Source of the DNA: Agrobacterium tumefaciens str. B6
GTDB taxonomy: Bacteria > Pseudomonadota > Alphaproteobacteria > Rhizobiales > Rhizobiaceae
Length of the DNA stretch: 64,000 nucleotides
Reading direction: 5' to 3'
Assembly (NCBI RefSeq): GCF_001541315.1
Contig: NZ_LMVK01000050.1
Span: 62,001-126,000, forward strand
The position numbers were made by a program, and so were the translations under genes. This document shows, piece by piece, positions 25,172 to 62,570 of the stretch (position 1 is the first letter of the stretch; each line of letters begins with the position of its first letter). The notes beneath the pieces are model-generated. The model worked only from the letters and a program-made list of their open reading frames with translations, was not told the origin of the DNA and did not search any database.

Positions 25172-25194
25172 ACCCGTGCATGTAGTGCATGGGT
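25172..25194. promoter_or_regulatory. Imperfect inverted repeat upstream of the DUF1127 gene
   Basis: ACCCGTGCA and TGCATGGGT around TGTAG form a 9-base stem with one wobble pair. It lies about 115 bases before the DUF1127 start, so it could be an operator or a leader hairpin. It has no T-run and is not a convincing terminator for the preceding gene. Confidence 0.3.
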
Positions 25195-25309
25195 GGATTG
25201 CCTTATTCTGCCTGTTAATGCGTCATCGAAAAGCGCATATAGAGGACATCAAAGGACGCCGGGACGAAAACGTTACTGACGTCACCTAAACCTCAGAAAG
25301 GGTAATGTC

Positions 25310-25486: not shown

Positions 25487-25516
25487 AAACGCCCGCTTTG
25501 CGGGCGTTTTTGTTTT
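25487..25516 (+). terminator. Rho-independent terminator of the DUF1127 gene
   Basis: Perfect 10-base stem AAACGCCCGC / GCGGGCGTTT with a TTT loop, followed by TTGTTTT. It lies 30 bases after the DUF1127 stop. Confidence 0.93.
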
Positions 25517-25521
25517 GGAAG

Positions 25522-25608
25522 CCTCTCCTCCGTCATCCTCGGGCTTGACCCGAGGATCCATTGCTTTCCACGGGTGAGGATCCTCGGGTCAAGCCCGAGG
25601 ATGACGTT
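25522..25608. repeat. Mosaic intergenic repeat, short family A variant
   Basis: CGTCATCCTCGGGCTTGACC followed by CGAGGATCC at the left mirrors GGATCCTCGGGTCAAGCCCG plus AGGATGACG at the right, with about 20 bases between. The terminal arms are each themselves palindromic. It lacks the inner modules of the copies at 19021 and 29974. It sits between the DUF1127 terminator and the sRNA. Confidence 0.8.
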
Positions 25609-25767
25609 GAGTATGTGCAAAGCGATGTCATTCCACGCCCGAGGACGACTGAAGCGAACCAATCGCCAGGAATTTTCGACGATGAATATTGCCATGCACA
25701 AAACGCATATCTGTGCTGCAACCTTGTGCCTGTCAAACGCGCAGAAAAATGGTATCTTCAAATCATC

Positions 25768-25930
25768 GAAACGGATGTACCTCCTCCCACATCCTTTCGG
25801 TAATGCGGGTGATCCTACTCCTCCTCCCAAAGGGTTGCCCCGGGGACAGCGGTTTTCCTCCTCCCATATCGCTGTTCATTTTTTTAAAAAAGCCTGCCGC
25901 ACCTCCTCCCGCGGCAGGCTTTTTTGTTTT
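25768..25930 (+). ncRNA. Multi-hairpin sRNA with four anti-Shine-Dalgarno loops (alpha-r14 / cuckoo type)
   Basis: Four successive hairpins each expose CCTCCTCCC in the loop, at 25780-25788, 25820-25828, 25857-25865 and 25902-25910. Stems: CGAAA-C-GGATGT/ACATCC-TTTCG; GGGTGATCCT/AGGGTTGCCC (10 pairs with three wobbles); GGACAGCG/CGCTGTTC; and AAAAAAGCCTGCCGC/GCGGCAGGCTTTTTT followed by GTTTT, which also serves as the terminator. CCUCCUCCC can pair with the GGAGG of ribosome-binding sites. The layout matches alphaproteobacterial alpha-r14 (NfeR1) and CcsR/cuckoo sRNAs, the latter encoded after DUF1127 genes. The 5' end is not visible; transcription could begin anywhere from about 25610 to 25765. 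No convincing sigma-70 box was found. Confidence 0.85.
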
Positions 25931-25960
25931 CGGAAACTTCCCTTTATTTTCAGGATTATC

Positions 25961-26404
25961 TCAGTCGAAAGCCATCATGCCGATGGGCGTTACGGCATGG
26001 GTGCCTGCGCGTCTGGCAAGGGCGTAAGCAAGGCACTGCTCCACGGCATCCTGCGGCACGGGCTTGGCGATCACGCCGGCTCCTATGCCGAGATTGACGA
26101 CGACTTCGGGGTTCGCCGTCATGAAGATCACCACCACGCCATGGTCTTCGGAAAGCCGCCGCCCGATTTCAGGGCCGGTCTGTCCATCGGCAAGATTGAC
26201 GTCGACGAAGGCGATATCGGCGCGGCTACCAAGCGCCACGGCCTCTTCCAGCCGGTTGGCGATGCCGATGACGTCCGCCTCTTCTTCCGCCTGCAAAATG
26301 GAATCCTCTATATCCATGGCGATGAGGAATTCGTCTTCCACGATCAGCACACGCGGCTGTTCCGTGTGGAAACCCGGTTCGTTCTGCAAGACGTCCGCCA
26401 ACAT
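25961..26404 (-). CDS. Single-domain response regulator
   Basis: 147 residues consisting of one receiver domain: acidic pocket VLIVEDE near residue 22, phosphoacceptor Asp in IAFVDVNLADG (~67), Thr in IFMTANPE (~95) and Lys in GVIAKPVP (~113). There is no output domain, so it acts by protein contact or as a phosphate sink. No histidine kinase gene is in the window, so it is an orphan. It is convergent with the sRNA terminator and divergent from ftsZ. Confidence 0.88.
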   Translation of the reverse strand: MLADVLQNEPGFHTEQPRVLIVEDEFLIAMDIEDSILQAEEEADVIGIANRLEEAVALGSRADIAFVDVNLADGQTGPEIGRRLSEDHGVVVIFMTANPEVVVNLGIGAGVIAKPVPQDAVEQCLAYALARRAGTHAVTPIGMMAFD

Positions 26405-26882: not shown

Positions 26883-27845
26883 ATGACCCAGTCTCCGCGC
26901 GCCACCATTGCCCGCAACACGCCCAATATCGCCGTCGTCGGCGTCGGTGGCGGTGGCGGCAATGCGATCAACAACATGATTGCGGAGGGCATTAGCGGGG
27001 TGGATTTCATCGCCGCCAATACGGATGCACAGGCGCTGAAGAAGACCAACGCGCCGCGGCTCGTGCAGTTGAGCTCCGAGCTGACCGGCGGTCTGGGCGC
27101 GGGCGCCGATCCCGAGGTCGGCCGTCAGGCGGCGATCGATTCCCTCGACGAGATCATGGATCACCTGAGCGGCTATGACATGTGCTTCATCACCGCGGGC
27201 ATGGGCGGCGGCACCGGCACGGGTGCGGCTCCCGTCATCGCTGAAGCCTGCCGGGCGAAGAACATCCTCACCGTCGGTGTCGTCACGCTTCCCTTCAGCT
27301 TCGAGGGCGCGCGCCGCATGCGGGCTGCCGAATATGGCTTTGCCAACCTGCTCAACACGGCCGATACCGTCATCGTCATTCCCAACCAGAACCTGCTGCG
27401 CATTGCCGATGCCGGTACCACCTTTGAAAATGCGCTGAAGACGGCCGACAAGGTCCTGTCGCTTGGCGTGCGCTGCATCACCGATCTCATCCTGCGCGAA
27501 GGCCTCGTCAATCTCGATTTCGCCGACGTGCGCTATGTCATGAAGAATGGCGGCCGGGCGCTGATGGGCACGGCGCAGGCCAAGGGTCCGAAACGCGCCT
27601 CGGAAGCGGCGGCCGCAGCCATCGCCAATCCGCTGCTCGGCGAACCCTCGCTGAAGGAGGCGCGTGGCGCGCTGGTATCCATCTCGGGCGGCAACGATCT
27701 GACGCTTTATGAAATCGACGAGGCGATGACGCTGGTGCGCGAAGCTGTGAGCGAAGAGACCGACGTGGTCATGGGCGCTTCCTTCGACCCCACGCTTGAT
27801 GGTGCCTTCAAGATTTCCGTCGTGGCCACCGGCCTGCGCAACTAA
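26883..27845 (+). CDS. FtsZ-like protein lacking the C-terminal tail
   Basis: 320 residues. GTP-binding tubulin/FtsZ core with the N-terminal loop VGVGGGGGNAINNMI, the tubulin signature AGMGGGTGTGAAPVIAEA (~107-124) and the catalytic T7 loop region LVNLDFADVRYVM. Normal FtsZ is about 380 to over 550 residues with a linker and a conserved C-terminal peptide that binds FtsA and ZipA; here the chain ends just after the globular domain (VVATGLRN). Such short paralogues exist beside the essential FtsZ in Agrobacterium and Sinorhizobium (FtsZ2). A role in division is uncertain; polymer modulation or redundancy is possible. It is a single-gene unit with its own terminators. Confidence 0.93.
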   Translation: MTQSPRATIARNTPNIAVVGVGGGGGNAINNMIAEGISGVDFIAANTDAQALKKTNAPRLVQLSSELTGGLGAGADPEVGRQAAIDSLDEIMDHLSGYDMCFITAGMGGGTGTGAAPVIAEACRAKNILTVGVVTLPFSFEGARRMRAAEYGFANLLNTADTVIVIPNQNLLRIADAGTTFENALKTADKVLSLGVRCITDLILREGLVNLDFADVRYVMKNGGRALMGTAQAKGPKRASEAAAAAIANPLLGEPSLKEARGALVSISGGNDLTLYEIDEAMTLVREAVSEETDVVMGASFDPTLDGAFKISVVATGLRN

Positions 27846-61445: not shown

Positions 61446-62570
61446 ATGAGCGATATCACCATTACCACCAATGCCCGGCAGGACCGCGCCGCCGTCGCCT
61501 CGCAGTGGCAGCTCATCTGGTGGGCATTCAAGCGCCACAAGCTGGCCATGGCCGCCCTGTTCATCACCATTGCCATGTATATCGTTGCGCTGGTGCCCGG
61601 CTTCTTCGCCATCAACGATCCGGTGCTGCAGAACGCCCGCGCCACCTTCCATCCGCCGCAGCGCGTCCATTTCGTCGATACGACCGAGGGTTTCTCGCTC
61701 GGGATGCATTATTATCCGCTGAAGCTGACCCGTAACCCCGAAACGCTGGCTGCCGTGTTCGTGGAAGATACGGCCAAGAAAATACCGATCCAGCTTTTTG
61801 GCAGGGGTTACGAATATTCCGTATTCGGCCTGTTCAACACGAATATCCACCTGCTGGCTTCCACCGACAAGACGCGCCCGCTTTTCCTGTTCGGCGCGGA
61901 CCGCCTCGGACGCGATGTCTTTAGCCGCGTGGTGCAGGGTGCGCAGGTTTCCCTGTCGATCGGTCTCGTCGGCGTGTTTTTCTCGCTGCTGCTCGGCGTC
62001 GTCCTGGGCGGTATCTCCGGTTATTATGGCGGCCGCATCGATTTCGTCATGCAGCGCGTGATCGATTTCGTGCTGTCGCTGCCCACCATTCCCATCTGGC
62101 TGGCGCTGGCCGCCGCCCTGCCGCAGGGCTGGCCTGCCACGCTTCAATACATGATGATCACCATCATCCTGTCCCTGACCGGCTGGGCGCAGCTTGCCCG
62201 CGTCGTGCGCGGCCGGTTCCTGTCGCTCCGAACCGAAGAATTCGTGGCCGCGGCGCGGCTGGATGGCGTGCCGGAAGGGCGCATCATCTTTCGCCATATG
62301 CTGCCGAGTTTTTCGAGCCATATCATCGCCTCGGTCACGCTTGCGGTTCCGGCGATGATCCTTGCGGAAACCTCGCTCTCATTCCTCGGTCTCGGTCTCC
62401 AGCCGCCGACGATTTCCTGGGGCGTGCTGCTTCGCGAGGCGCAGAATATCCGTTCGATTGCAACCGCGCCGTGGCTGTTCCTGCCGGGCGTCGCTGTTGT
62501 CATTGCCGTCATGGCGCTCAATCTGCTCGGTGACGGCCTGCGCGATGCAGCCGATCCCTATAATAAGTGA
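61446..62570 (+). CDS. ABC transporter permease, DppC type
   Basis: 374 residues after GGAGGGCGCC. First membrane span ~38-58, a long periplasmic insertion to ~150 (as in the protein at 14738), then five spans and the coupling loop [20 protein letters not shown]. Ends 8 bases before the fused ATPase gene. Confidence 0.92.

Follow-up and report, generated by a model that had tools for sequence, protein, structure and literature searches.

The stretch of DNA analyzed here (64,000 nt, referred to as the window) corresponds to contig C50 from position 62001, within a genome of 5.65 Mb in 52 contigs. A small gene of the DUF1127 family is followed on the same strand by a terminator-like stem, a dispersed palindromic repeat and four consecutive hairpins, beyond which lies a convergent gene for a response-regulator receiver protein (Table 1). 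A DUF1127 gene upstream of the hairpins, separated from them by a terminator and a repeat, had been recognized in an earlier reading made from the sequence alone (the sequence-only reading), and each of these elements was recovered, with the DUF1127 open reading frame ending 323 nt before the first hairpin loop.

Table 1. Features of the DUF1127 and four-hairpin locus, in window coordinates.
Feature	Coordinates	Strand	Basis
LysR (VtlR/LsrB-type) box before the DUF1127 gene, GTGC-N7-GCAT-N3-TG-N3-TGC (candidate)	25176..25201	+	pattern
Small DUF1127 protein gene, 48 aa	25310..25456	+	PF06568, E 2.8e-16, 59.4 bits
Terminator-like stem of the DUF1127 transcript	25487..25509	+	terminator scan
Dispersed palindromic repeat, two inverted CCTCGGGCTTGACCCGAGG halves (25537-25555 and 25582-25600)	25537..25600		genome half-site count
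LysR (VtlR/LsrB-type) box before the sRNA, ATGC-N7-GCAT-N3-TG-N3-TGC (candidate)	25694..25719	+	pattern; published box
Possible sigma-70-like promoter, CTGTCA (25730-25735), 17 nt, TATCTT (25753-25758)	25730..25758	+	by eye
Hairpin 1, CCTCCTCCC loop 25780-25788; predicted sRNA start (predicted TSS ~25765)	25765..25801	+	MFE; covariation
Rfam ar14 (RF02344) match, hairpins 2-4 only	25801..25926	+	96.2 bits, gathering 58.8
Hairpin 2, CCTCCTCCC loop 25820-25828	25807..25840	+	MFE
Hairpin 3, CCTCCTCCC loop 25857-25865	25844..25877	+	MFE
Hairpin 4, intrinsic terminator, CCTCCTCCC loop 25902-25910, stem ending in a T run	25885..25926	+	MFE
Response-regulator receiver protein, 147 aa, convergent neighbour	25961..26404	-	PF00072

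The motif CCTCCTCCC was found four times within 131 nt of the window (25780-25910). According to a second-order Markov model of the window, 0.1 copies would be expected per 64 kb, with no pair 20-60 nt apart, and chance clustering of the motifs was therefore ruled out. The minimum free energy (MFE) fold consisted of four hairpins, each copy of the motif lying entirely within a hairpin loop, and its energy of -65.5 kcal/mol was not equaled by any of 200 shuffles (mean -40.1; z -7.09). The four-loop hairpin array of the sequence-only reading is thus real and confirmed. The last hairpin, as had been proposed, has the form of a terminator, with a 16-bp stem ending in a T run; it lay outside the reach of the terminator scan, its loop of 10 exceeding the loop length that the scan allows. 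The span given earlier, 25768-25930, was slightly shifted, given that the fold starts 3 nt upstream, at 25765, and that the terminator stem ends at 25926. When the array was compared with Rfam, the gathering score of ar14 (RF02344) was passed (Table 1), in agreement with the earlier proposal of an alpha-r14/NfeR1-like (cuckoo) structured sRNA. The alpha-r14 RNAs have three hairpins, each with CCUCCUCCC (PMC10746234), and the model spans hairpins 2-4 of the four found here, so that hairpin 1 falls outside it. Membership in CcsR1 (RF02791; 29.2 bits, gathering score 65.3) or ar7 (31.9 bits, threshold 60) was rejected, both matches being under threshold.

Three loci of the genome exceeded the ar14 threshold, namely two three-loop copies and the four-loop copy of the window. 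The 5' hairpin of the four-loop copy resembles by eye that of the three-loop paralogues, and its terminator hairpin is that of the paralogue L046; the extra module is therefore probably a middle one. Among 61 genomes searched, ar14 matches were present in all 37 of the same genus (own included). Fifty-six stretches were fetched around the matches, most of them matches of lower score, since a high score goes with three-loop copies, and the cluster was absent from four of these stretches. A four-loop copy with at most one mismatch per loop was found in the fetched stretches of 35 of the 37 genus genomes, or in 36 when the window was counted as its genome's own copy; the loops, whose lack of conservation in relatives would have spoken against the sequence-only reading, are thus conserved. 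At least one copy with four exact loops was present in 34 of the 37 genomes; the others were G002, G004 and G020, the last of which has only two ar14 matches, both three-loop. Certain four-loop copies in the genus have changed loops. The loci fell into two sequence types, type A, to which the window copy belongs, and type B, with a CATCGAAGCGATGC-like start; type A was initially listed by neighbouring-gene matches, and the loop-1 sequence was concordant except at L080, which was placed by its neighbours.

Presentation of the motif in hairpin loops was assessed by two rules. Under the strict one (stems of at least 5 pairs), 126 of 145 motifs passed, and all motifs of a sequence lay in such loops in 21 of 38 distinct sequences, the window included; when the flanks were shuffled with the motifs fixed, none of 1140 shuffles achieved this. 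Under the looser one, which asks for a simple hairpin loop in the whole-RNA fold, the motif qualified in 37/37, 36/38, 34/34 and 20/20 unique modules 1-4, counted from 48 distinct four-loop genus sequences. When the structure of the window was placed on the alignment, 87.7% of the cells paired, compared with 37.6-51.2% with slid partners. The covariation was 0.200, against 0.143 in column shuffles (reached by 0 of 500) and 0.051-0.112 with slid partners, and 14 pairs were changed on both sides, against a shuffle mean of 10.0 (3 of 500 as high); further pair types went the opposite way, with 43 against 45.0 in the shuffles. Covariation in hairpin 1 was located at the alignment column pairs 19-40 and 24-35. 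Both-side changes were seen in 5 of the 10 pairs of hairpin 3, in which 98.9% of the cells paired, and likewise in 5 of 10 pairs of hairpin 2, where only 70.8% did, probably as a result of poor alignment of the type A against the type B stems. Hairpin 2, the stem of which differs between the two types, was missing from the RNAalifold prediction for this alignment. In hairpin 4, 96.2% of the cells paired and 9 of the 16 pairs were invariant; being almost invariant, the terminator stem yields no covariation. The loop sequence and its presentation are conserved while stems 1-3 drift, and the RNA structure is under selection.

The neighbouring genes were followed in the 40 first-fetched loci and the window, the 16 later-fetched loci being left out. 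The DUF1127 gene and the convergent response-regulator gene were found at all 19 type A loci, and an upstream gene for a 206-aa protein, which gave no Pfam match, at 18 of them. At the type B loci, DUF1127 was found upstream by tblastn in 6 of 19, with L048 without any. The palindromic repeat occurred at this position in only two of the 19 type A loci (the window and L052) and is therefore regarded as an insertion, not as a component of the system; its half-sites number 27 in the genome, often as facing pairs about 45 nt apart. Matches to miRNA families at about 25510-25625 were below threshold, sit on this repeat and were discarded. Further downstream, at 26883-27845, the window encodes a protein of the FtsZ family (320 aa; Tubulin and FtsZ_C domains), which is short for a main FtsZ.

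A possible promoter was recognized immediately upstream of the array (Table 1). Its TATCTT block is kept across the aligned type A loci, and a consensus promoter scan returned no sigma-70-like site on the sRNA strand. Candidate LysR boxes of the VtlR/LsrB type precede both the sRNA and the DUF1127 gene; the VtlR box as proposed in PMC7486931 reads GCAT-N3-TG-N3-T. The ATGC-N7-GCAT part of the sRNA-side box (25694-25708) spans about -71 to -57 relative to the predicted start and has the T-N11-A form of the box at about -72 to -57 through which LsrB is reported to activate NfeR1 (PMC10746234). The composite pattern RTGC-N7-GCAT-N3-TG-N3-TGC had exactly two matches in the genome, before the DUF1127 gene and before the sRNA (reversed control 0); having been built from the two sites seen, it shows their rarity and is not an independent prediction. 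A looser composite, likewise shaped by the two window sites, gave eight genome matches (control 1), three of which precede the DUF1127 gene of the window, its sRNA and a further small DUF1127 gene, respectively. Duplication of one promoter region was rejected as the origin of the pair, given that outside the box 13 of 26 positions are identical, which was matched by 430 of 63,843 windows.

The strict box (GCAT-N3-TG-N3-T) was found 40-115 nt before the first loop at 18 of 19 type A loci, the exception being L066, and at 11 of 19 type B loci. Among the control windows, 10 of 76 matched for type A and 11 of 27 on the DUF1127 side; overlap with the DUF1127 box is expected for some of the type A controls, and all controls are orthologous and therefore not independent. 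In both three-loop paralogues GCAT is replaced by GCAA, and this variant precedes the first loop by 76 nt, compared with 75 nt in the window.

To follow the arrangement more widely, sequenced genomes were scanned for three spaced motifs, which gave at least 120 stretches, examined as the first 80 loci and then the remaining 40. Among the matches listed, the first 80 loci held 89 clusters (59 three-loop, 16 four-loop, 5 five-loop and 9 with seven to ten loops), and the remaining 40 held 43, of which 25 were three-loop and 11 four-loop, the largest having 12 loops. The Streptomyces locus L103 is included in the 89-cluster loop census and was dropped from the DUF1127-distance and box counts; in the second set, the non-alphaproteobacterial clusters L180, L208 and L209 were left out of the group counts, and the L200 cluster was too close to the stretch end for the box test. 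Groups were assigned by hand (in the first set from record titles), the non-Rhodobacterales group being mainly Hyphomicrobiales plus a few unplaced MAGs, and the sets are not fully independent, as a few scan contigs, being equal in length, are probably identical to contigs of the other searched genomes (e.g., L124, L179 and L201). A DUF1127 match lay within 3 kb of 50 of 88 clusters in the first set (50 on the same strand, 0 on the opposite) and of 21 of 40 alphaproteobacterial clusters in the second (21 of 21 on the same strand), among the matches listed. Distances were taken from the point where the HMM match, and not the ORF, ends. On this measure, the DUF1127 match ended at most 70 nt from the first loop in 25 of 88 clusters of the first set and in 10 of the 40 alphaproteobacterial ones of the second, among the matches listed; these clusters are probably operons.

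Several other arrangements were seen in the scan. At the Rhodobacterales loci L143, L152, L171, L175, L187 and L193, 9 to 12 consecutive CCTCCTCC motifs follow the DUF1127 match, at a distance of 31-34 nt (173 nt in L187). The order is reversed at L117, L122, L125, L129, L131, L154 and L155, where a three-loop sRNA is followed by a same-strand DUF1127 a few hundred bases downstream. Plasmid records matching the region numbered 431; in 19 of the 20 listed, all from Rhizobium, the match is confined to the sRNA part, within 25699-25940.

The box was also sought before the scanned clusters in the form GCAW-N3-TG-N3-T, chosen after both three-loop paralogues had been seen; because this rule was set after the fact, it was rerun unchanged on the 40 remaining loci. 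In the first set, among the matches listed, the GCAW box preceded 29 of 55 unfused clusters outside Rhodobacterales (controls 5/314), 0 of 14 DUF1127-fused clusters (9/81) and 0 of 18 Rhodobacterales clusters (2/101). The later loci gave 15 of 22 (1/123), 0 of 7 (4/42) and 0 of 10 (1/59), respectively, again among the matches listed, the box being missing from 26 of 55 and 7 of 22 unfused non-Rhodobacterales clusters in the two sets. The strict box was found upstream of DUF1127 in 7 of 14 operon-type cases outside Rhodobacterales, among the matches listed. Seven split-type cases were returned by script, three of which are second clusters at operon-type loci; of the four truly split loci among the matches listed, all carry the sRNA box and three (L121, L124 and L161, not L111) the strict box on the DUF1127 side.

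Reinkensmeier and Giegerich reportedly described the cuckoo family in 2015 as having two to four hairpins. RFMSmelA075 and RFMSmelA099, with three and four hairpins and CCUCCUCCC loops, go back to Reinkensmeier et al. (2011), and the suggestion to group them as one family is reported there (PMC3927594). Compared by description, the array shares with RFMSmelA099 of Rhizobiales its four consecutive CCUCCUCCC hairpins, its variable stems and its several copies per genome (PMC3927594). The DUF1127-CcsR association has been named CIN1 in a paper citing the 2015 work of Reinkensmeier and Giegerich (PMC10253847), and the window carries a CIN1 locus in the loose sense of a short DUF1127 gene beside CcsR-like hairpins. 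The idea that four loops in one transcript might be a distinct arrangement was therefore not supported: RFMSmelA099 and CIN1 were already in print, and four-loop clusters amounted to 27 of 132 among the matches listed (16/89 and 11/43). With alpha-r14/NfeR1, the RNA has in common the loop motif, the terminator hairpin, the Rfam match and a LysR box placed at about an equal distance from the start, which is a predicted one here, whereas the former has three hairpins and not four. In the ccaF1-CcsR1-4/CIN1 locus of Rhodobacter (RF02791), a DUF1127 gene is likewise followed by same-strand CCUCCUCCC hairpins; however, these belong to four separate, co-transcribed CcsR RNAs, while here four loops lie in one RNA with a separate terminator-like stem and a putative promoter of its own. 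The analogy to ccaF1-ccsR drawn by the sequence-only reading thus held for the neighbourhood only, since the CcsR1 score is below threshold and the terminator-like stem and the conserved upstream block suggest separate transcription. Overall, its interpretation was partly supported. Since earlier work has described the family, its four-loop form and its association with DUF1127, the locus itself is ordinary; what appears to be added here is the matching VtlR/LsrB-type boxes at the DUF1127 gene and the sRNA.

Taken together, we consider it likely that the array encodes a four-hairpin, trans-acting anti-Shine-Dalgarno sRNA of the alpha-r14/NfeR1 type of the cuckoo family, with its own promoter and probably co-regulated with the DUF1127 gene by VtlR/LsrB. 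We infer that an RNA of about 162 nt (~25765-25926) would be transcribed from this promoter and end at the fourth hairpin. Each loop would present CCUCCUCCC, an anti-Shine-Dalgarno sequence, and by pairing with the ribosome-binding sites of many mRNAs would block their translation, the four loops serving as four interchangeable pairing sites. A LysR regulator of the VtlR/LsrB kind would most likely activate both the sRNA and the DUF1127 gene, which would then form a co-regulated pair and not one operon.

The loops are suited to Shine-Dalgarno pairing, as the sequence-only reading had held. GGAGGAG-N4-9-ATG occurs 153 times in the genome, compared with 32 times in the reversed control, and many pairable start sites are therefore available. 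The full 9-nt complement GGGAGGAGG before ATG was not enriched in the genome (4, control 3); pairing would therefore involve 7-8 nt, and a specific 9-nt target code was rejected. On these counts, the best reading is that of a broad translational repressor, which would act by short pairing to strong Shine-Dalgarno sites. NfeR1 is reported to silence mRNAs by pairing of its CCUCCUCCC loops with translation initiation regions, ntrB being paired at its translation start, and its loops are called redundant (PMC10746234).

A different origin of the RNA would be an operon like ccaF1-ccsR, in which RNase E cuts the sRNA from the 3' part of the DUF1127 transcript and the DUF1127 protein aids its maturation. 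The same-strand position of every DUF1127 match within 3 kb of a listed cluster is consistent with such processing, and the short distances of at most 70 nt at part of the listed clusters are as expected for a CIN1 locus (PMC10253847). In the window, however, the gap of 323 nt contains a strong terminator-like stem and the repeat, the conserved LysR box and TATCTT block lie immediately 5' of the sRNA, and the CcsR1 score falls well below its threshold, which makes processing from the DUF1127 transcript unlikely here. The four-loop copy could also be a silent or degenerate extra without a function of its own, the three-loop paralogues doing the work. Only one of the six NfeR1 copies of S. meliloti was reliably detected by northern analysis under the conditions tested (reported in PMC7143759), and loops are altered in certain four-loop copies of the genus; against this stand the exact loops kept in at least one copy by nearly all genus genomes, the covarying stems and the conserved promoter block, and we regard a silent copy as quite unlikely.

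Conserved loops on drifting stems 1-3 would equally fit a decoy or sponge, in which the loops bind not mRNAs but a protein (ribosomal, RNA-binding or DUF1127) or another sRNA, and the DUF1127 protein of Rhodobacter is reported to bind RNA (PMC10253847). In the closest studied relative, however, wild-type NfeR1 silenced an ntrB fusion and the variant NfeR1abc, taken to be the one with the three anti-Shine-Dalgarno motifs changed, did not (PMC10746234), and small DUF1127 proteins of A. tumefaciens are reported to bind, and to work via, the kinase PhoR (PMC12501420); a sponge is thus very improbable. Beside the anti-Shine-Dalgarno sRNA that we prefer, the DUF1127 partner may act on its own.

For the Hyphomicrobiales, a wider proposition, in our judgement evenly balanced between right and wrong, is that the DUF1127 gene and the cuckoo sRNA are both driven by one LysR regulator (VtlR/LsrB), with a single box before DUF1127 in operons and a box for each of the two at split loci such as this one. 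The distribution of boxes in and around the DUF1127 and sRNA loci fits the published activation of NfeR1 by LsrB, of DUF1127 genes in Brucella by VtlR (PMC12595884) and, in Agrobacterium, of the small-protein gene atu1667 by VtlR, this gene being described as an orthologue of two of the Brucella genes (PMC7486931). A literature search, in which subscription papers were mostly beyond reach, returned no title or abstract opening linking LysR boxes of DUF1127 and sRNA. If the proposition were true, the DUF1127 protein and the four-loop RNA would form the two arms of a single regulon, which would retune phosphate control and the uptake of nutrients. The locus offers a well-conserved example of a small DUF1127 protein gene and an anti-Shine-Dalgarno RNA that appear to be transcribed separately, with LysR boxes that match, and joint control would therefore be easily testable in Agrobacterium.

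The interval between atu4669 and atu4670 on the linear chromosome of A. tumefaciens C58 is possibly this same locus. It is the reported source of VrsA/L4, a VtlR-activated RNA of about 300 nt (PMC7486931). At L053, the copy of this locus in the relative G005 (~1377-1717; contig 2), a DUF1127 transcript of about 268 nt was predicted by eye, with a VtlR-type box upstream. In length, VrsA/L4 is better fitted by this predicted DUF1127 mRNA than by the 162-nt sRNA, and if the loci are the same, VrsA is more likely to be the DUF1127 mRNA than the four-loop sRNA. That VrsA is the DUF1127 mRNA of this locus would also be a corollary of the one-regulator proposition.
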